From assembly GCA_949300485.1 (NCBI GenBank), contig CASGEL010000002.1, positions 1 through 64,000 on the forward strand: a stretch of DNA of 64,000 nt, read 5' to 3'. The notes under the pieces are model-generated. The model searched no databases, was not told the DNA's origin, and saw only the letters and a list, made by a program, of their open reading frames with translations. Origin of the DNA: an uncultured bacterium (GTDB taxonomy: Bacteria > Cyanobacteriota > Vampirovibrionia > Gastranaerophilales > Gastranaerophilaceae). Of this stretch, positions 31,987-42,601 are shown in pieces (within the stretch, counting starts at the first letter, position 1; each line of letters begins with the position of its first letter). Position numbers and translations under genes: made by a program.

Positions 31987-32035
31987 CATAAATTCATCTA
32001 TATTTTTACCTTGAATATATAATTTATTATTTTAC

Positions 32036-32263
32036 TTATTTTAAAATAAGACAGTCATAAATTTTATCAATTTTATCTTTCATATCAATAACCTGGCTTT
32101 TCAAATCTTCAAATCTGTTATTGGTCGTAAAACGACTTTCAATATCTCTAATTATTTCTCTGTGCTTTTTCTCCAACTGCTCAGGAGTTACAACTATCCT
32201 TTCCTGCACCAAAAACACCAGAACAACAATCACAACAGGTGCATAGTATATAAATTGATCCAT
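32036..32263 (-). CDS. Small phage membrane/coiled-coil protein
   Basis: The 75-residue protein has an N-terminal transmembrane helix (residues 5-20, IYYAPVVIVVLVFLV) and a charged helical remainder (EQLEKKHREIIRDIESRF, then KDKIDKIY) likely to form a coiled coil. This is a spanin- or holin-accessory-like layout, but no lysis family can be assigned. It is the last gene of the island operon, preceded by AGGAGAAA and followed by the 31956-31986 terminator. Confidence 0.7.
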   Translation of the reverse strand: MDQFIYYAPVVIVVLVFLVQERIVVTPEQLEKKHREIIRDIESRFTTNNRFEDLKSQVIDMKDKIDKIYDCLILK

Positions 32264-32329
32264 ATTATTTCTCCTTTATTTTTAATACCGGCTTTACCTC
32301 GGACCACAACATTTAGCAGCATTTACCCC

Positions 32330-33619
32330 CTAGAGGACAATAGGCCAGTAAAAATCTACAAGATATGAAGCGGCATCAAACGGATGTGATAAAAACTTCA
32401 GCTCTTTATTTTGCTTTATTTGACTATATGTAGGAACATCTATCCTTGAAGACCCTTCAATATATCGGAGATTATATATATTATACAAAAGCTTTTCACA
32501 CTTAGGCGAAACATACAAATTAACTTCACCGTTTGCATTTTTGACCTTTGCATTAAAAGCTGCAATTCTGTTTTTGATAGGAGGATTAAATGCTTTTATC
32601 TTAATATCAACATCATAACCATAAGATTCCATCTTCTTTTTAATTATTACATAGTTTGTATATTCACTGGTGCAGCTTCTATTATCTCCTGAAGCATCTC
32701 CGTTTATAATAATTTTTCCTTTATGATTCGGATATCTGTTATAAAATTCCTCGCAGGTTTTTGCGGTGGTAGTATTTTCTAAAACCAGCTCATCAAAATA
32801 AAAAACTTTATCATCTGTTTTATGAGCAAGGACCCAGGCCATCGGGTCTACATTGAAATCACAACTTATATGTACATCTAATTCAGGTTGATATTGAATA
32901 TCCCTGATATTTAGATCAGTAAAATCTTTTACCACTAGATTTGAGCTATAATCACCTGTTTTCCCGAGAACAAAGATATCATAATAATTCTGATCATAAA
33001 GTTTTTTCAATTCATCACAAAAACCGTCAGGCAGATGAATATTTTGCGTTGTCGGGGCACAAATAAGCCTGTAATTCGGAGGCGGATTATTTAAAAATGT
33101 TTTATATATCCAACCTTTATGAACTTCAGGATTTGTGTGCCCAAAAATTCTATAGGTAAAATTTTTCCAAGATGATTTCTTTTGCTGACGCATACGAGCA
33201 AGTAGCATTTTAAAAGTTTCGTATGGAACATCCGACATCTCTTCAATTTCTACAAAACCTAAATTTAAAGATTTTAATTTACTAGGCTCGTCAAAATGTC
33301 TAAAAAGGATTTCGGATCCGTTATGAAACACTATTTTTTGCTCTGCACTAACCCATTTATAGTCAACTTTTTCAACAAAACCAATGTTATCAAAATGCTC
33401 AAAGTAAGTTTTCAACGTTGTATCCCTCACTAAAGTATAAGTTTGTGCCCCAACAAGGCCAGTTATACCAGGAAATTTAACCGCCAATAAAATTCCTAAT
33501 AAAGCCCCGGCAAAAGTTTTACCGGAGCCATATCCGCCTTGATATACAGCAACATCAAGCGAATAACAATGAGGAATTTCCAAGAATCTTCTTTGAGCAT
33601 CTAATAGTTCATATTGCAC
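32330..33619 (-). CDS. terL: Phage terminase large subunit
   Basis: TerL drives DNA into proheads and cleaves the concatemer. The 429-residue protein carries an N-terminal ATPase with Walker A GGYGSGKT and Walker B LGFVEIEEM, followed by an RNase H-like nuclease with acidic residues in SCDFNVDPM, INGDASGDNR and the late PFDAASYLVD. Both active sites appear intact, so it could still package DNA. It overlaps neither neighbour; portal lies 27 bases upstream. Confidence 0.93.
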   Translation of the reverse strand: MQYELLDAQRRFLEIPHCYSLDVAVYQGGYGSGKTFAGALLGILLAVKFPGITGLVGAQTYTLVRDTTLKTYFEHFDNIGFVEKVDYKWVSAEQKIVFHNGSEILFRHFDEPSKLKSLNLGFVEIEEMSDVPYETFKMLLARMRQQKKSSWKNFTYRIFGHTNPEVHKGWIYKTFLNNPPPNYRLICAPTTQNIHLPDGFCDELKKLYDQNYYDIFVLGKTGDYSSNLVVKDFTDLNIRDIQYQPELDVHISCDFNVDPMAWVLAHKTDDKVFYFDELVLENTTTAKTCEEFYNRYPNHKGKIIINGDASGDNRSCTSEYTNYVIIKKKMESYGYDVDIKIKAFNPPIKNRIAAFNAKVKNANGEVNLYVSPKCEKLLYNIYNLRYIEGSSRIDVPTYSQIKQNKELKFLSHPFDAASYLVDFYWPIVL

Positions 33620-33646
33620 TTTTCGATACCTCCAAAGAATATTTGA

Positions 33647-35392
33647 CTACATCACATTTTGAGCGGAAGGCAGTGTATTTAAGTTACTACCTTGCGAAAT
33701 CTTTTGAGTTGTCCCCGATGAAGCTTGAAGGGATGAAGTTTGAGAATTATCATCTTCTGTCAAAAAATTATTAGCATTTTCAACTCCATACTGTTCCATT
33801 GCAAATTTGAAACACTCAAGCCAATCAATTTTTTGAGATACAACACTAATTTTAGTAAATGATTGTATAACTTCAAATAATTCTTTAATACGTGCTTTGC
33901 GTTCAAAAGTTGCTTTTCTGTCTCCATAACGATACACATAATTTGAATTTCTGATTTTATCATCAATTTCAACAAGAAATGTTCTGCCTCTGTCATTTGC
34001 CAAAATTGATTCTTTTCCCAATTTAAAATTAGAAATAATTTCAGCAGTTTTTTCCACCATAGGAACTATGACCTTTCGGTTAATAGACTCCAAAATCATA
34101 TTCAAACGGGCTTCCTGACCGTTAACAGAATAATTGATTTCAGTTGCGGTTTTATCAGAAGTTTGCAGATTTCCGGCCATATTTTTAAAGATTCCTGTAG
34201 CACTCTCGATAGTTGATTTGAAATAATTTAAAAAATCCCAGCCTTGCATGGCCTTATCAAATGAAAGAGGGGTAGGAACAGATGTCATTAAAGATGCATC
34301 ATACTCAATAATTTTACCCGGTCTTACATCCTGCTGACCTTTAAAACAGCCTTTCGGAGCCAAATAAGGAGGATTCATCATAAGCGCTAAGGCATCCAGC
34401 TGTTTATTTAAAATAGTAGAGGATATATTATTCAATATTAAAGCAACACGCAACGGAGAAATACCACGACCTGTTGTCGGACATTCAATAATATTCGCAT
34501 GAATAAACGGATTGATAATATAAGGATTATCTTCAAATCTGATAAACACGCATCTGCCCGCAACAACCGCTAATTTATTTTTCAAAACCTCTCCTGAAGG
34601 CAGCTCAATATCTCCCCAATATTCCAATACTTCAATTTTATGCTCACACGTAGACCTTTTAGCATTTCTTGTTTTTTTTCCTGCCACCACTCCTTTCAAA
34701 ATTTCCAGTTTTTCTTCATCAAGCATATTGTTAGATTTATTTGACTTAATTTCATCTAACGTCTGATAAGTTCTATAAATTTTGGCGCAGCTATCCCAAT
34801 TATCAGCCTCATTTTTATCAAAAACAAAGTCATCATAATGTATAAATCTAACCTTTGCATTGTCATAAATAACTTTATCTTCAACAACAAAATTTTCTTT
34901 TACATTCCTTGAAATTTGCTCTTCTAATGAAATCGCCCGTCTAGTTCTTCTATACTTTGTATCCCATCCGACAAATAAAGTTACCTCACCGGTTTCAACG
35001 ACAGAATCAATAATTTTTTCCATTTCATTTTCAATTTTCATATTTTCAAAAGTATTTACAAGCATTGCTTTTTGTTTGTTCGCATACTTTTGGGTTTCAA
35101 AATCAGTACCTTCAACATCAAACATTCCGTCAGGATGAGAATATAAATTTTGTACAAGATGAGATTTCAGAGTCTGAGCAAGCTCATAAATATCCGGAAG
35201 TTGTATATTGCAATCCCAAGAATTAATTTTAGGAATATCAGAATCATAAATTGCATATTTAATAAGTCTGTTATCCGCTAACTGAGTTGATCTGTCATTT
35301 TCATAATAGTCATATTTTTCAATTATATTGCTCAATAAAAATTGCTCATCAATATAATTTATTTTGTTTTTATCATTTTTTAAATTTTCCAT
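33647..35392 (-). CDS. Phage portal protein
   Basis: The portal is the dodecameric gate through which DNA enters and leaves the capsid. This 581-residue protein matches podoviral portals in size and pattern: KSHLVQNLYSHPDG near the N-terminus, EYWGDIELPSGE, the TTGRGISPLRVALILN region, GKIIEYDAS, and SDKTATEINYSVNGQEARL followed by a long helix. The C-terminus is Ser/Gln-rich. It is located between the GNAT-like gene and terL and is in the same operon. Confidence 0.85.
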   Translation of the reverse strand: MENLKNDKNKINYIDEQFLLSNIIEKYDYYENDRSTQLADNRLIKYAIYDSDIPKINSWDCNIQLPDIYELAQTLKSHLVQNLYSHPDGMFDVEGTDFETQKYANKQKAMLVNTFENMKIENEMEKIIDSVVETGEVTLFVGWDTKYRRTRRAISLEEQISRNVKENFVVEDKVIYDNAKVRFIHYDDFVFDKNEADNWDSCAKIYRTYQTLDEIKSNKSNNMLDEEKLEILKGVVAGKKTRNAKRSTCEHKIEVLEYWGDIELPSGEVLKNKLAVVAGRCVFIRFEDNPYIINPFIHANIIECPTTGRGISPLRVALILNNISSTILNKQLDALALMMNPPYLAPKGCFKGQQDVRPGKIIEYDASLMTSVPTPLSFDKAMQGWDFLNYFKSTIESATGIFKNMAGNLQTSDKTATEINYSVNGQEARLNMILESINRKVIVPMVEKTAEIISNFKLGKESILANDRGRTFLVEIDDKIRNSNYVYRYGDRKATFERKARIKELFEVIQSFTKISVVSQKIDWLECFKFAMEQYGVENANNFLTEDDNSQTSSLQASSGTTQKISQGSNLNTLPSAQNVM

Positions 35393-35394
35393 AT

Positions 35395-35925
35395 TTACCT
35401 CAATTTATAATAATAATTTTTGTATAAACCATACACCTCTATATCCTGCGGTTTCCCGAATCTTAATGTTTCATTTCTCAATGTAGCTTCATATACAAAT
35501 CCGCTTGACTTAAGTAGATTTTTAACTCGGAAATTTTCAGGATAAATTCTTGCAGTAATTTTAAACAATCCAAGTTCGTCAAAACATTTTTTCAAAAAAA
35601 TCTTCCCTGCAAACTTTGTAAAACTTCCCCAAGCACTACTGTCAAAACAAGTTGTCAATTCCGCACTGTATAATAAATTATTATCACCAGTAAAATTATC
35701 TAAAAATACAAATCCCATGAATTTATCATTCATATCAGATATAACCCAAAAATACGGAGAAATATTTTCTATAAACGAATAAATATCAGATACATAATCC
35801 GTAGAAAAATCATCTAATAAGAATTTAAAATATTTACGGAAACAACTTTCTATAAAGGGGATATACTGCAGGTTGCAATATACCCCACATTGTCTGTTAA
35901 TTACAATCCTTTTGAACTTGCACAT
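35395..35925 (-). CDS. GNAT-like acetyltransferase in the island operon
   Basis: The C-terminal half (~90-176) resembles a GNAT fold, with a helix followed by ELGLFKITARIYPENFRVKN and SGFVYEATLR, the typical beta4-alpha3-beta5 region, then a closing strand. The acetyl-CoA loop (R/Q-x-x-G-x-G/A) is not evident, so activity is uncertain. Its stop is two bases before the portal ATG and its ATG follows the 117-residue gene by one base, so it is an integral part of the operon. Confidence 0.7.
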   Translation of the reverse strand: MCKFKRIVINRQCGVYCNLQYIPFIESCFRKYFKFLLDDFSTDYVSDIYSFIENISPYFWVISDMNDKFMGFVFLDNFTGDNNLLYSAELTTCFDSSAWGSFTKFAGKIFLKKCFDELGLFKITARIYPENFRVKNLLKSSGFVYEATLRNETLRFGKPQDIEVYGLYKNYYYKLR

Positions 35926-35926
35926 A

Positions 35927-36280
35927 TTAAATTTTTATTTTTTCAAACTTGACAAAACTGTTTTCACTAACAAAAGAATCAGAAATTCCTGATAGAAGTT
36001 TATCTCTTACAGCCTTTTGGGCGCCAAGATAACCCTCAGCTTGAACTCCATTTATATAAGATTTTGTTTTGCTGTTTTTATTAATAACAAGATAGACAGC
36101 CTCTTTTGAAAAAATCTTATCTCTTGGAACTTTTTTAATATCAGTAATAATCCTTTTCTTTTTCTGTTTTTGAGCATTTCGTAATTCCTGTTTGAATTCC
36201 TGCTCAACTTTCGTTTTCATAATTGCTTCATAAGAAGAATTATTTAACAACATTTTTTCTATATCCTTGTTTTCTTTCAT
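35927..36280 (-). CDS. Island hypothetical protein, basic
   Basis: The 117-residue protein is Lys-rich and unrecognised. The N-terminal ~60 residues look helical (KTKVEQEFKQELRNAQKQKK) and the remainder mixes short strands and helices; no signal peptide, membrane helix or Cys is present. It lies between terS and the GNAT-like gene. The composition and position are compatible with a nucleic acid-binding or structural accessory protein, but no function can be given. Confidence 0.7.
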   Translation of the reverse strand: MKENKDIEKMLLNNSSYEAIMKTKVEQEFKQELRNAQKQKKKRIITDIKKVPRDKIFSKEAVYLVINKNSKTKSYINGVQAEGYLGAQKAVRDKLLSGISDSFVSENSFVKFEKIKI

Positions 36281-36301
36281 ATAAAATAACCTTTCATAAA
36301 C

Positions 36302-36736
36302 TTAAATTTTTTCATCATCAAGGTTCGAAATAGTAATAATTTTCGCTTCGTGATATTGTTCTTCTTCAGGTACTGTAGAAAAGCCCAAATACTTACAAAG
36401 ACTTTCCAGAGCCTTTAATCCTGCCGAAGAATCTCTTAATTTCATCTTTCCGGTGGGATTACCTTCTTTATCTAATATATCCTCCTGTTCCAAAGAAAAC
36501 TCCGCAATTTGTAAAAGTTTCTGGATAACATATCCTTTAGGAACATTCAAAGAATCAATTTGATGCTTTAAATGAGATTTTATTTCATGGATTATGCTCT
36601 CCTTTTCAAGAAGCTCAAGAGAAAAACTTTTCAAATCTTTGCATTTGTATCCGGCTTTTCTTGCAGCAAATTCACCGTCAAGCGTCCTTATATACTCAAT
36701 TACGAACTTTTTTTGCTGTTGTGTTAACTGTTTCAT
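36302..36736 (-). CDS. terS: Phage terminase small subunit
   Basis: TerS selects phage DNA for packaging. The 144-residue protein has the Terminase_2 layout: QQKKFVIEYIRTLDGEFAARKAGYKCK (a helix-turn-helix containing the A-AGY motif), then ESIIHEIKSHL and a C-terminal oligomerisation helix (SSAGLKALESLCKYLGF). It appears intact. A TATAAT box at 36753-36758 on the minus strand gives it its own promoter in addition to read-through. Confidence 0.9.
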   Translation of the reverse strand: MKQLTQQQKKFVIEYIRTLDGEFAARKAGYKCKDLKSFSLELLEKESIIHEIKSHLKHQIDSLNVPKGYVIQKLLQIAEFSLEQEDILDKEGNPTGKMKLRDSSAGLKALESLCKYLGFSTVPEEEQYHEAKIITISNLDDEKI

Positions 36737-36782
36737 CTCTTTACATTTCTTATTATAATTTGTGTTTTTACTAAATAATTTG

Positions 36783-36860
36783 TATAATAGACATGCTATT
36801 TATATTTCGGCTAGTGTAAATCTTAACAGGGGGGAATGAAAACGACTTCCTGTTTTTTTT
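36783..36860 (+). ncRNA. Candidate small plus-strand RNA inside the island
   Basis: A plus-strand promoter (TTGTGT at 36760, 17-base spacer, TATAAT at 36783-36788) predicts a start near 36795. A rho-independent terminator follows at 36825-36860 (AACAGGGGG / CTTCCTGTT with two wobbles, then eight T). The ~65-nt transcript would run against all the structural genes. An eight-codon ORF (ATG at 36793) is also within reach. This is prediction only. Confidence 0.4.
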
Positions 36861-36862
36861 GT

Positions 36863-37501
36863 CTACTTTCTAAACAAATTCACTACAGGAGCATTTAAAG
36901 CCGATATTGATGTTTTAGATTTCAAGTTAAGCAAAGCCTCTTTGTACATGCTCAACCAATATGAAAACTTAAAATATTGAGGGTTTGCTTTTAACCTCAA
37001 GCATGCCCCATACACTAATAATTGTTCTGCAAAGGGCATTGGAATAAGAGATACGTCAGACTCTGCCTCAAAATCCGTTTTTTCTTGATTTTGAGCATCC
37101 AGCACACAATTTTTAGTGTAATAAATAACATCAATAGTTTTATCTTTATCAAACTTTGGAAACATAAGTTTATCTGAAAAACTTGAATAAGCTTCAGCAT
37201 TTGCATTCCCAGTTAAAAACGGTTCAATATTATCCGAAAAATTATACTTTTTACCATCAATAAATAAATATAAAATTCTTCCGTTTACTGTATTATCAAT
37301 TTCAGAAACACCTGCAGGCAAAGATAAATTCATCCTGCGCAGGAGAAAATTCCAGCCCTCAATATTACAAATCTCTTTATTGATAATATTTAAAATAGTT
37401 ATAATGCGTTTATGATCATTTTTTACAAGTTCGGCCATAGAATTAACCTGCTTGTAATTTAATTCTAATAAACATTTATTTATAAGTTCTAAAAAATTCA
37501 T
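36863..37501 (-). CDS. Probable phage head-tail connector protein
   Basis: The 212-residue protein begins with two helices (FLELINKCLLELNYKQ; RIITILNIINKEICN followed by WNFLL). This pattern is common in podoviral head-closure/adaptor proteins such as P22 gp4-like factors. The middle is beta-rich, and the C-terminal helix (QLLVYGACLRLKANP, SYWLSMYKEALLNLKS) fits the same group. The assignment rests on pattern and position between scaffold and terminase; confidence in the exact role is moderate. Confidence 0.65.
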   Translation of the reverse strand: MNFLELINKCLLELNYKQVNSMAELVKNDHKRIITILNIINKEICNIEGWNFLLRRMNLSLPAGVSEIDNTVNGRILYLFIDGKKYNFSDNIEPFLTGNANAEAYSSFSDKLMFPKFDKDKTIDVIYYTKNCVLDAQNQEKTDFEAESDVSLIPMPFAEQLLVYGACLRLKANPQYFKFSYWLSMYKEALLNLKSKTSISALNAPVVNLFRK

Positions 37502-37579
37502 TACATCTCCTTTTTTTTAAAAGTCCGAACAAGAATAATAAAATTCCTGCCCGGACTTTATTATTGAATTCATCTAAAA

Positions 37580-38260
37580 TTATTTAATTAACCCTTGGCG
37601 CAACTGCTCCATAATCAACTTTTCATTTTTAGTGAATTCTTCACCACTCATATTGCCGATGTCTTCACGAGTAAAAATCCTATTCATATTGCTGTCTGAT
37701 GGAGCAGATTGTGCATAAGCCATCAATTTGCTCTTTGCAGCAGAGTTCTCGTCATTCAATGATTTCTCGTATGCAGACTTTTTCAAATATTTATCAACTG
37801 CAGCGTTTTCTAATTTTTCTACAAGTTGAGATATTCGAACTATTTCATCTTTGTCCATATCGTAACCCTTGATATAATTTAGGACATCAACTCTTCCTTC
37901 TCCGTCAAAAAATCCTGGATGTTCTTGATTAAACAATGCCATAGAATTTAATGATGAAGAAACAGGCATTGAAGGAACAGAATTAGGTTGAGTAAAATTC
38001 TGCATTTCAGAATTTTTATAGTTGTTAATTTCTTGAGCTTTCCTAGCTAATTGAGCCATCAAATATTGTCCTTGTTGTCGATTAATTACACCCTTTGACA
38101 AAAGATTATTAATCCTTTGTACGTCTGCACCAATAGCCTGTTCTAATTGATAAAAAAGATTTTTATATCCTAAGTTTTGGGCTGCCTGAGGACTTACGGC
38201 AGATGATGAAATACTATTATTAATTTGCTGCGGAACTTGTCCGCTAATTTGGTTTTGCAT
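37580..38260 (-). CDS. Probable phage scaffolding protein
   Basis: The 226-residue protein is Gln/Asn/Ser-rich and largely helical, with no Cys and a charged helical C-terminus (KNEKLIMEQLRQGLIK). It includes a short ordered-looking segment, HPGFFDGEGRVDVLNYIKGY. Composition, size and location next to the coat gene match scaffolding proteins, which template procapsid assembly and bind coat through their C-terminal helix. I did not recognise a specific family. Confidence 0.6.
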   Translation of the reverse strand: MQNQISGQVPQQINNSISSSAVSPQAAQNLGYKNLFYQLEQAIGADVQRINNLLSKGVINRQQGQYLMAQLARKAQEINNYKNSEMQNFTQPNSVPSMPVSSSLNSMALFNQEHPGFFDGEGRVDVLNYIKGYDMDKDEIVRISQLVEKLENAAVDKYLKKSAYEKSLNDENSAAKSKLMAYAQSAPSDSNMNRIFTREDIGNMSGEEFTKNEKLIMEQLRQGLIK

Positions 38261-38265
38261 AAATA

Positions 38266-38514
38266 CTATTCTCCTTCTGTTTTTTGCAAAGAATTCATAT
38301 ACTGCACAGCTATTTCAATCACATCATCAATAAAACTTGATAATAATACTGAAATCACATACTTGAGCCAATTAGGAAGAGGAAGATTCTTTACTACATA
38401 TTCAACAGCCATCTTCTTTTTTTCTTGACCCTTTCCGCTTCCAAGTTGCTCTTCTGCAACCAAAACAGCGTTCTTTGCTAATTCTTTTATTTGATTTTTT
38501 AAATTTGAAAACAT
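38266..38514 (-). CDS. Holin-like small protein
   Basis: The 82-residue protein contains a segment (VLVAEEQLGSGKGQEKKKMA) resembling the motif of LLH-type phage holins. A hydrophobic C-terminal helix follows (WLKYVISVLLSSFIDDVIEI). LLH holins normally have an N-terminal transmembrane helix, which is missing, so function in pore formation is uncertain. It lies between the coat and scaffold genes, with five bases to the next ATG. Confidence 0.6.
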   Translation of the reverse strand: MFSNLKNQIKELAKNAVLVAEEQLGSGKGQEKKKMAVEYVVKNLPLPNWLKYVISVLLSSFIDDVIEIAVQYMNSLQKTEGE

Positions 38515-38582
38515 ATAAATTCTCCATAGTTAAAAAATGTACCCTCAAACTCTATCTGACGGAATGAGAGTACATTTCAGTC

Positions 38583-39530
38583 CTAGCCTTCCGGTAGTGA
38601 TGATTCTGTTGTTGTAGTTTCTGTATTAGTTGTTTCGCCTGTAGAAATTTCAGGTTCATCTTCAATAACAGAATCTGCAGAAGCTGAAACAACTAATTTT
38701 GCCAAAGATTTAGGCTGTACTGTTTTTGCACCATATAGATATAAACCTCTCACCAAATCTGAGAAAGAATCTTTATCTCTTAAACTTTCAATCTTTGCCA
38801 ACTGGGAAGCAAATGTAATTGCATCATTTGTACCTGCTAAAACATAATATTTATCATCAACTTCAGTAAGGTTAGTACTTACAAGAACATCCATACCGGC
38901 AATTCTACCGATTGAACCTTCTCTTAATGTTTCATCTGCAACTTTATATGCACTGATAAATTCAGGGCTTTGCAATAAATAAGCCTCAATATTAGGGTTG
39001 ATTACGACCCAAGGTTTAATTCCTGAGTATACAGCATCAGAATTTTTTAAAGCTAATGCTAATTTTACAAATTGTTCATAAATAGTTGTTTTGTCCAAAA
39101 TTACAGGAGAATCCTCAGACCCAATTGTATTTTCTTCAGGAACATCTGTATGTAAACCCAAAAGGTAAGAATCTTGTACAACCTCAATGGCTTTTTTAGC
39201 ATTTGTTAGATGAGCCTCCATAATATCTGCATTTGATTGGACCTGAGCAATATCATCTATTTTGAATGCAAAAAACTTTTTTTGATCAATAACCAAATCC
39301 TGAGAAACAGGAGATAAACTTGCATATTCAATATTATCAGAGGTTAAAGTAGAAACGGTTACATCCGCAGGGGTAATAATCTTTACAGTGTCACCTTGAT
39401 TTTTAATTTCACCTTCCCAATTTTTGTTAACACACTGAAGCATTACACAGTTCTTTTCTAACATTTGGTTTAATTTTTTACTCCAGATTTGGGGAATAAA
39501 AGCTGAATAAGTTGAACTAAATTCTGTCAT
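38583..39530 (-). CDS. Major capsid (coat) protein
   Basis: The 315-residue protein matches P22/HK97-fold coat proteins in pattern: an N-terminal helix (FIPQIWSKKLNQMLEKN), GDTVKIITPADVTV (strand-turn typical of the E-loop/P domain), LVIDQKKFFAFKIDDIAQVQS, WVVINPNIEAYLL, and GRIAGMDVLVSTNL. The last ~30 residues are a Thr/Ser/Glu-rich tail. It is the central gene of the operon and appears intact. Confidence 0.85.
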   Translation of the reverse strand: MTEFSSTYSAFIPQIWSKKLNQMLEKNCVMLQCVNKNWEGEIKNQGDTVKIITPADVTVSTLTSDNIEYASLSPVSQDLVIDQKKFFAFKIDDIAQVQSNADIMEAHLTNAKKAIEVVQDSYLLGLHTDVPEENTIGSEDSPVILDKTTIYEQFVKLALALKNSDAVYSGIKPWVVINPNIEAYLLQSPEFISAYKVADETLREGSIGRIAGMDVLVSTNLTEVDDKYYVLAGTNDAITFASQLAKIESLRDKDSFSDLVRGLYLYGAKTVQPKSLAKLVVSASADSVIEDEPEISTGETTNTETTTTESSLPEG

Positions 39531-39590
39531 TTGATTTTTCCTTTCGCTTTCTAACTATAAGTAACTTTATATGAGTGGTGGTCAAAAATT

Positions 39591-41111
39591 TTAATCATCA
39601 TTATAAATTTCTCGAAACTGAAGACCTATAATTGCACAATTATCAGACATTTCAGAACCTTCTATACAAAGTTGTATAGAATAATTACTTCCGCATATTT
39701 CGGCTTTTTCCATAACCTCAGAGGTTACAGACCATACAGGGGCATCATTTTCTTCTAAACTCCAGCAATACTCTAAATCATCAGGTGTGTCATCTCCGCC
39801 CCAGATAAAATGACTGTAATGCTTTGAATATATTAACTCCGCATCGTCACTAACTCCGCTATCATAATCTTTATATATAGAAAATTTAAATTTATTATCA
39901 TTTAAATCATCCAAAATAAAATAAAATTCATCAATAAGCTTTCTTCGCAATATTTTCCCTAAAGATAAAAAGGGAGATTTCCACATAAACTTAATAACAT
40001 TCCCATCAAATGAGGTACCGTAATCTTCTCGGTAAATTTTGCCTTGCGTATCTGCAGTTAAAATGAAAGATTTAAACAATATTGCAGTTGTAATATCCTG
40101 CGGAAGGATTCGCTTATACCAAGCTTTATTTACATAATCATTAATCCATATTGTATGATAATAGATATCATCCAGATACGGGAATAAAACCCATATCTGG
40201 CTTTTATCCGGATAATGAACAATTTTAACATCATCAAGCCTTGCGGCATCAAACTTGCCAAACTCATCTTTTATATTTAAAGAAATTTCTGATCCTAAAC
40301 GAATTTGATTTAATTCTCCAACCTGCTCAAGAGCAAAAATTCCGTTGCTTAAAAAATACTGCTTATTATCAACATTTACAATAGAATTTCTTGCAATTGT
40401 ACCTTTTTCTGCGAACGGAGTAATTGCAAAATCTGACGGGTTAGAACCTGATAGTAAAAAGACCCTTTCCCTTTTATAAATAGCTAAATAATCTTTATAT
40501 GGATTCATAGTAATTATGTCGGCTGTATCAGTATGAAAATCACTAATATAACCTGCATCATCTTCTGTTTCAAAATCATCATATGTACCAAGCGCAGAAT
40601 AATATATTGTAGATTCTTTAGCACACCATACACGTCCTTTATAAACCGTTATACAATCAGGATAAAGTATTGCCCCGCTTTTATCTTTAAGATTACAATC
40701 TACAATATCAAAATTGTCATTATCCTTTATATAAAACATTGCATCCGACTCAGTTGCAACAAGAATACCTCTTAAAAATTTCACAAATTTAACATTGACA
40801 CCGGTTAACGTTTTATCCAACTGCTTTAATTCATTATTAACATCTGAGTAAACATAAACTTTTCCGGAAATTGTAGTAATAACGAGTTTATACTGACTGT
40901 CGGATTCCATTTCTCCCATAGCAGTAATCTGCTCAGCCACCGGAAGTTGAACAAATAAGGTATTTCCTTTTTGTCGAATAATTCCCTTATTATTATAAAT
41001 TTCAATATTTTCAGAATCAGACCAATAAATAACTTTAGGATCCATTCCCAATTCAGTCTTTGTCGAAGCCTGGTTAATACCACCAGATAAATCAAAATAA
41101 TTTACATCCAT
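39591..41111 (-). CDS. P22 gp10-like tail hub/stabilisation protein
   Basis: The 506-residue protein opens with YFDLSGGINQASTKTELGMD, a pattern typical of podoviral stabilisation or hub proteins. It continues as repeated beta-strand units (for example LVITTISGKVYVYSD, YLAIYKRERVFLLSGSNP) consistent with a beta-propeller, as in P22 gp10. It should seal the portal/connector after packaging. No needle or tailspike gene follows, so the particle, if made, would lack known receptor-binding parts. Confidence 0.72.
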   Translation of the reverse strand: MDVNYFDLSGGINQASTKTELGMDPKVIYWSDSENIEIYNNKGIIRQKGNTLFVQLPVAEQITAMGEMESDSQYKLVITTISGKVYVYSDVNNELKQLDKTLTGVNVKFVKFLRGILVATESDAMFYIKDNDNFDIVDCNLKDKSGAILYPDCITVYKGRVWCAKESTIYYSALGTYDDFETEDDAGYISDFHTDTADIITMNPYKDYLAIYKRERVFLLSGSNPSDFAITPFAEKGTIARNSIVNVDNKQYFLSNGIFALEQVGELNQIRLGSEISLNIKDEFGKFDAARLDDVKIVHYPDKSQIWVLFPYLDDIYYHTIWINDYVNKAWYKRILPQDITTAILFKSFILTADTQGKIYREDYGTSFDGNVIKFMWKSPFLSLGKILRRKLIDEFYFILDDLNDNKFKFSIYKDYDSGVSDDAELIYSKHYSHFIWGGDDTPDDLEYCWSLEENDAPVWSVTSEVMEKAEICGSNYSIQLCIEGSEMSDNCAIIGLQFREIYNDD

Positions 41112-41125
41112 AAACTTATATCCTC

Positions 41126-41617
41126 TTATAATTTTTCCTTATACCAACGTATCTTAGAGCGTATAAAACTTCCTACCTCATTCTGAGAAACCCAAGGATA
41201 CGGTGGCAGCCAGATTATATCAATTTTTCCGGCACTTGAAGTTTTCGGATTAGATTTTCCAAACTCATAATGAGTGAATACTGTATTTGGATTAACATCA
41301 AGCCTATATTTTTTACACAATTCCGCACAAAATTTCATACAAGCTTCAAATTGAATTTTTGTTATCGGAAAATTCCCAGGAACAGAGCTTGATTTAAAAC
41401 CGTACATTCCGCACATACAAACACCTGCAGAACCGGTATTTCCTCCTCCGGTATGTGCCGCATAACATCCATCATTACAATTATCATTATCTTCTGGTTT
41501 ATAAAATCCATTATAAATACTCCCATCAGCATCAATTAAATAGTGATAATATTTTTTTTCAAATTCACTTGGATAATACCGTCCGGCACTCCAATGTATA
41601 ACTATTCTTTTTACCAT
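41126..41617 (-). CDS. Phage endolysin, N-acetylmuramoyl-L-alanine amidase (type 2)
   Basis: The 163-residue protein is an amidase_2/PGRP-fold enzyme that cuts the lactyl-L-Ala bond of peptidoglycan. Zinc ligands are likely His8 (IVIHWSAG), His116 (VFTHYEFG) and Asp133 or its neighbours (GKIDIIW). AAHTGGGNTGSAGVCMCGMYG is the conserved central segment. There is no signal peptide, so release would need a holin. It is second in the island operon. Confidence 0.88.
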   Translation of the reverse strand: MVKRIVIHWSAGRYYPSEFEKKYYHYLIDADGSIYNGFYKPEDNDNCNDGCYAAHTGGGNTGSAGVCMCGMYGFKSSSVPGNFPITKIQFEACMKFCAELCKKYRLDVNPNTVFTHYEFGKSNPKTSSAGKIDIIWLPPYPWVSQNEVGSFIRSKIRWYKEKL

Positions 41618-41627
41618 TTAAATCTCC

Positions 41628-41834
41628 TTATAATATTTTCCATTTAGGATTTAAGTGCATATATAAAACTACTGCATTGACTCTGTTTCTCGCATTTAAG
41701 CTTGCTATGATAGAATATATGTGTGTTTGCACAGTTCTTGTAGACATTTTTAATTTCACAGCAATTTCTTTATCTGTAAATCCGCGTGCTACCAAGGTCA
41801 ATATCTCTAATTTCTTTGGTGATAATTTCAACAC
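41628..41834 (-). CDS. Stand-alone LuxR/GerE-type DNA-binding protein
   Basis: The 68-residue protein is only a LuxR-type helix-turn-helix: LSPKKLEILTLVARGFTDKEI, then KLKMSTRTVQTHIYSIIASL. It has no receiver or sensor domain, so it probably acts constitutively or through dimerisation partners. It resembles the HTH of the host response regulators encoded at 54222-55513. It is the first gene of the capsid operon and starts with GTG behind GAGAGAA/AGAGG. A palindrome over its predicted start site suggests autoregulation. Confidence 0.85.
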   Translation of the reverse strand: MLKLSPKKLEILTLVARGFTDKEIAVKLKMSTRTVQTHIYSIIASLNARNRVNAVVLYMHLNPKWKIL

Positions 41835-41849
41835 TTCTCTCTTTCCTCT

Positions 41850-41872
41850 GGTTAATTTAACCTTATATTATA
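41850..41872 (-). promoter_or_regulatory. Island operon promoter with overlapping palindromic operator
   Basis: Minus-strand TATAAT lies at 41867-41872, with TTAAAA as -35 at 18-base spacing. The predicted start near 41860 falls inside GGTTAA-T-TTAACC (41850-41862), a perfect 13-base inverted repeat. Binding there should block or gate the promoter. Confidence 0.5.
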
Positions 41873-41911
41873 TTAAGCTTCTTCAGCAATTTTTAATAAT
41901 ATCTCCATATT

Positions 41912-41962
41912 AAAAAAATTCGGAGGGGAGAAAGGGTAGATAAGATATAACAACCCCTCCGA
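41912..41962 (-). terminator. Terminator between the zinc-ribbon gene and the LuxR-type gene
   Basis: TCGGAGGGG and CCCCTCCGA are perfect 9-bp complements enclosing a ~25-base loop, followed on the minus strand by seven T. The long loop is unusual; it may act as a terminator or an attenuator for read-through into the island. Confidence 0.7.
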
Positions 41963-42004
41963 GCGCAAATAGAGTAAATGATTGAAGGATTTGGTTCTTA
42001 AAGT

Positions 42005-42361
42005 TTAAGATATACCCAATCTCAAATTAGATAAGTTGGAGTAACAACGTTTTTTTACACCGAATTCACTATATCCAAGATAAAATGTACCACGATTAGT
42101 AAAAAGACAGCCATCATACTTACTATGCTCATACATAATTTTTGATTTTGCTCTTGACCAAAATTTTCTAGCTTTATTATTAGTTAATCTGATAGTCGAT
42201 AGAGAGTTTGTATTATCAATTCTTGTAAGTTGTATAACATAATGGCCGCAAACAGGACACTCCGCTAAAATGTCCATATCGCACAACACAAAACCGTCTG
42301 AGGGGAAAAGCGAAAAAGATTTTGTTTCACGCATTCCCCCACAACAATGAATATATCCCAT
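42005..42361 (-). CDS. Hypothetical zinc-ribbon-like protein at the island edge
   Basis: The 118-residue protein has Cys pairs (IHCC near residue 6 and AECPVCGHYV near residue 35) that could bind one zinc, then a basic region (NNKARKFWSRAKSKI) and a Tyr/Gly-rich C-terminus. This suggests a small nucleic acid-binding protein; no family recognised. I start at the ATG at 42361, eleven bases after AGAGG; a GTG at 42370 is too close to the ribosome binding site. It is separated from the capsid operon by a terminator. Confidence 0.65.
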   Translation of the reverse strand: MGYIHCCGGMRETKSFSLFPSDGFVLCDMDILAECPVCGHYVIQLTRIDNTNSLSTIRLTNNKARKFWSRAKSKIMYEHSKYDGCLFTNRGTFYLGYSEFGVKKRCYSNLSNLRLGIS

Positions 42362-42601
42362 AATACACACATCCTCTTATTGTGAGTCTCGGCAAACAGC
42401 TTTACCATCAAGGGTGTGAGCCTTAACCGCTTACATTTTAAGTATATACGATTTTTTATAAAAAAATAGTCCGCACTTTTTCGTAAGTATTAATACGGAC
42501 TTGACAATTATTAAAAATCAGACTAAATCATTGTATAAAGCTGGTAGAGTAGACACATTTGCAAATTTGACAAAATATTTATTTGACAAAATTTTAATAA
42601 C

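Follow-up and report, generated by a model that had tools for sequence, protein, structure and literature searches.

Gene transfer agents (GTAs) of the RcGTA type in the Alphaproteobacteria are encoded by a cluster of head and packaging genes that is kept vertically, is under purifying selection and, in the known cases, is controlled by the host. RcGTA itself is siphovirus-like, with tail genes of its own. The island that we describe here from a member of the Gastranaerophilales can be likened to RcGTA as a vertically kept cluster under purifying selection, but it is of the podovirus type.

The nearest described system is FpGTA of the gut bacterium Faecalibacterium, a podovirus-like operon of ∼10.5 kb with TerS, TerL, portal, scaffold and coat genes and no replication genes, which was found in each of the 12 genomes examined from the genus and yields ∼40-nm particles that contain about 9 kb of DNA (PMC12946183). 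By description the two are alike, each being a small podovirus-like head and packaging operon in a gut bacterium, without replication genes. They differ in that the island belongs to another phylum, includes lysis and nozzle genes and a LuxR-type helix-turn-helix (HTH) gene in the same operon, is conserved across many genera and is accompanied by dispersed proteins with a scaffold-type tail; the particle of the present system is a prediction from its genes. It would be a second, independent and much older case, common to many genera of these nonphotosynthetic gut relatives of the Cyanobacteria. Our literature search of open-licence PMC papers found neither a GTA in the Gastranaerophilales nor a scaffold-tailed toxin system.

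For head-borne effectors, the nearest precedents would be two groups of proteins that differ from those described below in the part that targets the head and in genomic setting. In the MuF polymorphic toxins of temperate phages, a head-associated phage domain is joined to variable toxin domains, and small immunity ORFs accompany them (PMC5576092), whereas the tail found here is of the scaffold type, usually C-terminal and not MuF, and the genes lie outside prophages, scattered in host genomes alongside a capsid that is passed on by vertical descent. Phage polyvalent proteins and T4 Alt are head-packaged effectors injected with the DNA, with PBECR nuclease domains among them (PMC5512222). Such effectors are part of autonomous phages or conjugative elements, whereas the capsid here appears to be domesticated. 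The scaffold-tailed protein family is a new and unexpected finding, which lay beyond the view of the original prediction for this DNA.

A Single Operon with a Predicted Podovirus-Type Particle Gene Set

Our ORF reading of the window (the whole 64,000-nucleotide stretch of DNA analyzed) revealed 14 intact genes between 32036 and 42370, which form one uninterrupted operon on the minus strand, read from 42370 down to 32036 (Table 1). In order of transcription, these encode a 121-residue Cys-rich protein, a LuxR/GerE-type HTH, an amidase, a nozzle, the major capsid protein, a Holin_LLH holin, a scaffold-like protein, a tail adaptor, TerS, a 117-residue protein, a GNAT protein, the portal, TerL and a 75-residue membrane protein. 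Assignments were based on PHROGs, Pfam and a PDB sequence search, and for the nozzle also on an AlphaFold model. The predicted products make the island a particle gene set of the short-tailed (podovirus) type, with a packaging motor and lysis genes.

Table 1. Features of the island, with positions in the window
Feature	Position	Strand	Evidence
Small membrane protein, 75 aa, holin/spanin-like, 3′ of terL	32036..32263	-	Kept in 74/80 loci, dN/dS 0.019
Terminase large subunit TerL, catalytic residues intact	32330..33619	-	Terminase_3 PF04466 4.8e-20
Portal/head-tail connector	33647..35392	-	PHROG 332 8.6e-34; PF12236 above cut-off
GNAT acetyltransferase, conserved cassette member	35395..35925	-	PF13302 1.3e-8; 63/80 loci
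117-aa conserved cassette protein, role not assigned	35927..36280	-	Conserved across loci
Terminase small subunit TerS	36302..36736	-	Terminase_2 PF03592 6.4e-14; PHROG 51 4.3e-17
Tail adaptor, tail tubular protein A type	36863..37501	-	PHROG 6013 5.4e-7; weak match PDB 9k09 tail tubular protein A
Scaffold-like helical protein	37580..38260	-	AF2 all-helical, C-terminal helix-turn-helix, pTM 0.30
Scaffold C-terminal 36 residues, tail in common with dispersed cargo proteins	37583..37690	-	Segment HMM
Holin, Holin_LLH superfamily	38266..38514	-	PF09682 8.5e-7, above Pfam cut-off
Major capsid protein (coat), HK97-type by homology	38583..39530	-	PHROG 267 1.6e-49; PDB 8e16 1.2e-25
Tail nozzle, beta-propeller, P22 gp10/T7 gp12 type	39591..41111	-	AF2 pLDDT 84.7; Foldseek + VIA matches
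Amidase endolysin, Amidase_2	41126..41617	-	PF01510 1.3e-15
Lone LuxR/GerE-type HTH, candidate operon regulator, start codon uncertain	41628..41834	-	PF00196 7e-15
Cys-rich (CC...CxxC) conserved 121-aa protein, operon head	42005..42370	-	Alignment A4, Cys invariant

The original prediction had recognized terS, terL, portal, coat, scaffold-like, amidase and holin-like genes as intact on one strand, and the PHROG and Pfam matches bear this out. The Walker A and acidic nuclease residues that it had read in TerL are likewise conserved: across 81 sequences there is no change in the Walker A, Walker B, coupling-motif or three nuclease Asp residues, other than a Phe in place of one Walker A Tyr in 3 of them. 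The gene that it had called hub-like is present, but its fold identifies the product more precisely as a podovirus tail nozzle. Most of the length of the nozzle model aligns with podovirus nozzles, that of Pa223 being the closest (Z 29.5) and P22 gp10 having a Z of 25.8, and the fold search also returned those of the cyanopodophages Pan3 and Pam1. The lone LuxR-type HTH, which had been overlooked, is matched at the same place in 53 of 80 loci. For the 75-residue membrane protein, a BhlA holin match is weak and under the cut-off.

The gene upstream of the tail adaptor is scaffold-like by its position, helicity and homology, its model being of low confidence; with a pTM of 0.30, the model was judged too poor for a fold search. 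The coat protein varies among species in the length of its C-terminal tail past about residue 284 (283 to 333 aa overall). Several coat orthologs have one stop near residue 284 with similarity resuming beyond it, a possible read-through or frameshift extension.

The flanks of the island are ordinary host genes, encoding a CNNM/CBS protein, a histidine kinase and dxr. As had been predicted, no integrase was found: the whole 192.7-kb contig gave no Phage_integrase match, and a search for att repeats gave no exact flanking repeat, but only chance-like matches of 71% inside coding sequence. There is no replication gene among the cassette ORFs, and the island has no repressor; no spike, fiber or receptor-binding gene was found.

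The Cassette Is Inherited Vertically under Purifying Selection

TerL is not the property of a single strain at a variable site: 45 of the 46 species of the genus have it, mostly as a single copy and with full-length matches of 78 to 93% identity. The sole genus member without it (G001) lacks the portal as well; this genome retains one full scaffold-tailed gene, and either a real loss or an assembly gap could be responsible. Among the genomes surveyed, which are mostly MAGs, TerL extends across about 20 genera, and an ortholog with 73 to 100% identity occurs in 98 of 241 family genomes. It is found in all sampled members of genera g1, g6, g8, g9, g12 and g16, the counts for the six well-sampled genera being 20/20, 20/20, 13/13, 11/11, 7/7 and 6/6. 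The cassettes of g7, g32 and g33 are more divergent and shuffled.

Among 80 genome-assembly loci, 43 carry the complete 13-gene core (LuxR through the 75-residue protein) on one contig, and these 43 do not differ in the order or strand of the genes; none of the 80 has an internal stop in TerL. Median dN/dS values (Nei–Gojobori, pairs with dS <1.8; approximate, as dS is near saturation in many pairs) lie between 0.02 and 0.17 over the cassette. For the three genes singled out in the original prediction they are 0.022 (TerL), 0.051 (portal) and 0.038 (coat), followed by 0.041 for TerS, 0.062 for the nozzle and 0.065 for the amidase; the GNAT, 117-residue and scaffold genes evolve fastest (0.13 to 0.17). 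TerL and coat are thus in the range of the neighboring housekeeping genes (rarA 0.034, CNNM 0.046). Every sampled genus is monophyletic both in an rpoB tree and in a tree built from six concatenated cassette proteins, the main g1 subclades are the same in the two, and on an rpoB tree of 40 genomes the presence of the cassette requires 4 changes, compared to 9.8 in shuffles. The cassette is a core gene set that is inherited vertically with the host and is under purifying selection.

In five genomes (G021 to G025), which form one supported clade of the rpoB tree, terL is separate from the rest of the cassette, and the 75-residue gene has stayed with it. In G024, terL is on a 267-kb contig, at 214 kb, and the rest is on a 93-kb contig, at 23 to 31 kb, so that the distance is at least about 74 kb; in G023 the distance is at least about 24 kb. 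One part is near a contig end in G021 and G022, and G025 was read on the terL side alone. A prophage would not readily account for an inherited translocation that left both parts intact. An apparent split in G185 was dismissed as an effect of contig edges.

Outside the family, coat homologs with 49 to 58% identity are present in other families of the order, where the scaffold-like gene is also linked to the coat gene. In three loci from such families (L202, L203 and L204), the coat gene lies beside a scaffold-like gene, with an amidase gene too in two of the three; terL and the portal were not within the 9 to 20 kb read, and the cassette may be more dispersed there. The TerL proteins of isolate phages reach about 29% identity at best, cyanophages being the closest. 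Autonomous relatives do exist: TerL relatives are found in complete temperate phages of 40 to 47 kb, and the viral contig L170, whose TerL is 54% identical, has tail fibers, an integrase, a DnaB helicase, a replication initiator and a repressor-like gene. Short IMG/VR contigs (L111 to L133) carry close copies of the cassette, several with host flanks; several of these contigs probably derive from bacterial genomes and were misclassified as viral.

The vertical descent of the cassette, its core presence, its low dN/dS and its internal rearrangement, in which the genes were retained, all argue against a cryptic or defective prophage that is merely common and is packaged by helper phages in the manner of a satellite. 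This alternative would suit the lack of replication and integration genes and the relationship of TerL to those temperate phages, but satellites normally retain integration or replication genes, and the stop-free TerL frames, the identical order of the complete cassettes and the lack of an integrase on the 193-kb contig and of att repeats also speak against it. We consider it highly improbable, and the distribution has already largely refuted it. The data support the proposal in the original prediction of a functional, possibly domesticated capsid element that is not a decaying prophage. The cassette is very probably a domesticated and selected set of particle genes, and, as judged from the genes, a GTA-like domestication is strongly supported.

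Dispersed Proteins Carry the Scaffold C-Terminal Segment

Our search for extra cassette genes revealed variable ORFs inserted between the portal, terL and 75-residue genes in 38 loci. An HMM built from the last 36 residues of the scaffold alone detects these ORFs with scores up to 62.8 bits. In a control, 85 of 95 ORFs labeled as cargo scored below 1e-5 and none of 1,602 other ORFs reached 20 bits; the cargo label came from a profile (A5) that contains the same segment, and the independent evidence is the search with the scaffold segment alone. The best noncargo score, 17.5 bits, belonged to a gene that adjoins coat in another family, as would suit a scaffold.

The cargo proteins contain the segment once or twice, in general with YVxxYTRxDGTxVKGYYRS or WVTINGNHV after it. 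In most of them this tail module lies at the C terminus, but some have it at the N terminus. The remainder varies and includes GH108 muramidase (1e-23, 4e-27), DUF6973 (up to 8e-14), class-3 lipase/Mbeg1 and transglycosylase or tail-lysozyme-like domains (PHROG 27932, 5e-21), glycine-zipper membrane segments and a PBECR1 nuclease match just under the cut-off. A common tail module joined to variable enzymatic domains is a feature of polymorphic toxins; Pfam scans of 29 cargo proteins, at the E-values used, returned no match to MuF. Besides the scaffold, the genome of the window has four tailed places, all away from the island, of which two are lipases with a GHSLG motif. Tandem arrays of cargo genes, accompanied by orphan tails, were also observed. 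Orphan tails without an enzyme domain (L311 6354-6551, L301 1020-1322 and L069) resemble the displaced toxin tips of polymorphic toxin loci.

The tail module is essentially absent from isolate phages, in which nothing convincing was found, and was not seen in the phage relatives of the cassette examined. A search of isolate phages with the scaffold sequence gave only a weak match (E 0.5), between the final 32 residues of the scaffold and a protein of a Pelagibacter podovirus.

The C-terminal helix-turn-helix of known phage scaffolds, such as that of P22, binds coat, so proteins with the same segment would be expected to ride inside the particle. We consider it reasonably probable that the scaffold-tailed proteins are capsid cargo. 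If the tail loads proteins, it would be a genetic address for capsid cargo that links GTAs to polymorphic toxins, and a comparison of related genomes that have or lack the cassette would directly test why bacteria keep GTAs.

Some cargo genes have a distinctive neighbor. A divergent ORF of 111 to 149 residues with at least two predicted membrane segments lies at the gene start of 7 of 8 lipase and 14 of 18 DUF6973 cargo genes, against a background of 2.6% for divergent small ORFs with multiple membrane segments at 739 other genes; the lysozyme, glycine-zipper and N-terminal-tail types have no such partner. This is the pattern expected of membrane-acting toxins and their immunity proteins, and it favors toxicity for the lipase and DUF6973 types. 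We give even chances to the view that some of the cargo proteins are toxins with immunity partners.

The tailed proteins might instead be virion enzymes that open walls or membranes to aid the entry of packaged host DNA, in which case the particle would be a GTA alone and would carry no effectors. The podovirus-type gene set with complete packaging, holin and amidase genes is consistent with this, and GH108 muramidase and transglycosylase-like cargo would suit entry enzymes. The immunity-like membrane partners of the lipase and DUF6973 types, the resemblance of the domain polymorphism, tandem arrays and orphan tails to polymorphic toxins, and the PBECR1-like match are less easily accommodated, and we regard a GTA alone as somewhat unlikely.

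Co-occurrence of Cargo and Cassette

Full tails are present in 71 of the 98 cassette genomes and in 33 of the 143 others among the 241 family genomes (odds ratio 8.8, p 3e-14, with genomes counted singly and without phylogenetic correction). In the 12 genomes of g34, the same 5 have both cassette and cargo and the other 7 have neither (5/5 versus 0/7, p 0.0013). The main exception is g5, in which 13 of 18 genomes have cargo, with a more diverged segment, and the cassette is not detectable; this cargo may use a different capsid as its partner. Scaffold-tailed lipase, DUF6973 and lysozyme genes were seen in g5 genomes such as L296 and L297. In the cassette genus g8, cargo is rare (1/7).

The segment could also be a motif for some other partner, such as an export or cell-wall anchor, that the scaffold borrowed by chance. 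The second conserved part of the cargo tail (YTRxDGTxVKGYYRS), which is absent from the scaffold, would fit such a motif, as would the g5 cargo without a cassette and the lack of a covariation signal between scaffold and cargo tails across genera (p 0.07). Set against these are the strength of the match between the first segment and the scaffold C terminus, with no unrelated ORF at 20 bits, the frequent location of cargo between the portal, terL and 75-residue genes, and the joint absence of cargo and cassette in g34; we judge a different partner to be unlikely. The p 0.07 trend itself was discarded because it stemmed from a g7 "scaffold" that turned out to be a cargo gene.

Proposed Mechanism

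We favor, with moderate confidence, a domesticated GTA-like podovirus capsid that is owned by the host in the Gastranaerophilales and also loads tagged protein cargo. The LuxR-type HTH would probably switch the operon on, and the scaffold would shape the coat into the procapsid of a small short-tailed particle. Proteins that end or begin in the scaffold-type, putatively coat-binding tail would most likely be taken up by the procapsid and carried along with the particle. TerL and TerS would then fill the head. With no replication, integration or repressor genes, the cassette has no replicating genome of its own, so host DNA is the most likely content, and we think it likely that the particle packages it. 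The nozzle would close the head and later deliver the contents, and the holin and amidase would lyse the producer and release the particles. Part of the cargo would probably act in the recipient as a toxin or an entry enzyme, and host DNA, proteins or both may be carried from cell to cell by the particle.

A tentative possibility is a host-controlled, capsid-based weapon for protein delivery, in which a polymorphic set of toxins, loaded via the scaffold-type tail into a domesticated short-tailed phage head instead of or besides DNA, would kill or alter neighbors that are without the membrane immunity partners. If true, it would be a head-based counterpart of the tail-based contractile injection systems.

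Regulation of the Operon

The presence of the GNAT gene, the LuxR/GerE HTH and the conserved Cys-rich ORF in the island makes host-type regulation of the operon through the HTH possible. Our search for a promoter motif shared by cassette and cargo genes gave only ribosome-binding sites and paralog copies, and a promoter scan was not above chance. Similar inverted repeats of the type AAGTCCGTATT ... AATACGGACTT were observed at 42440-42500 of the window, upstream of the first cassette gene, and at about 4160-4310 of L288, upstream of a scaffold-tailed gene in another genome; these may be a terminator or a common regulatory element.
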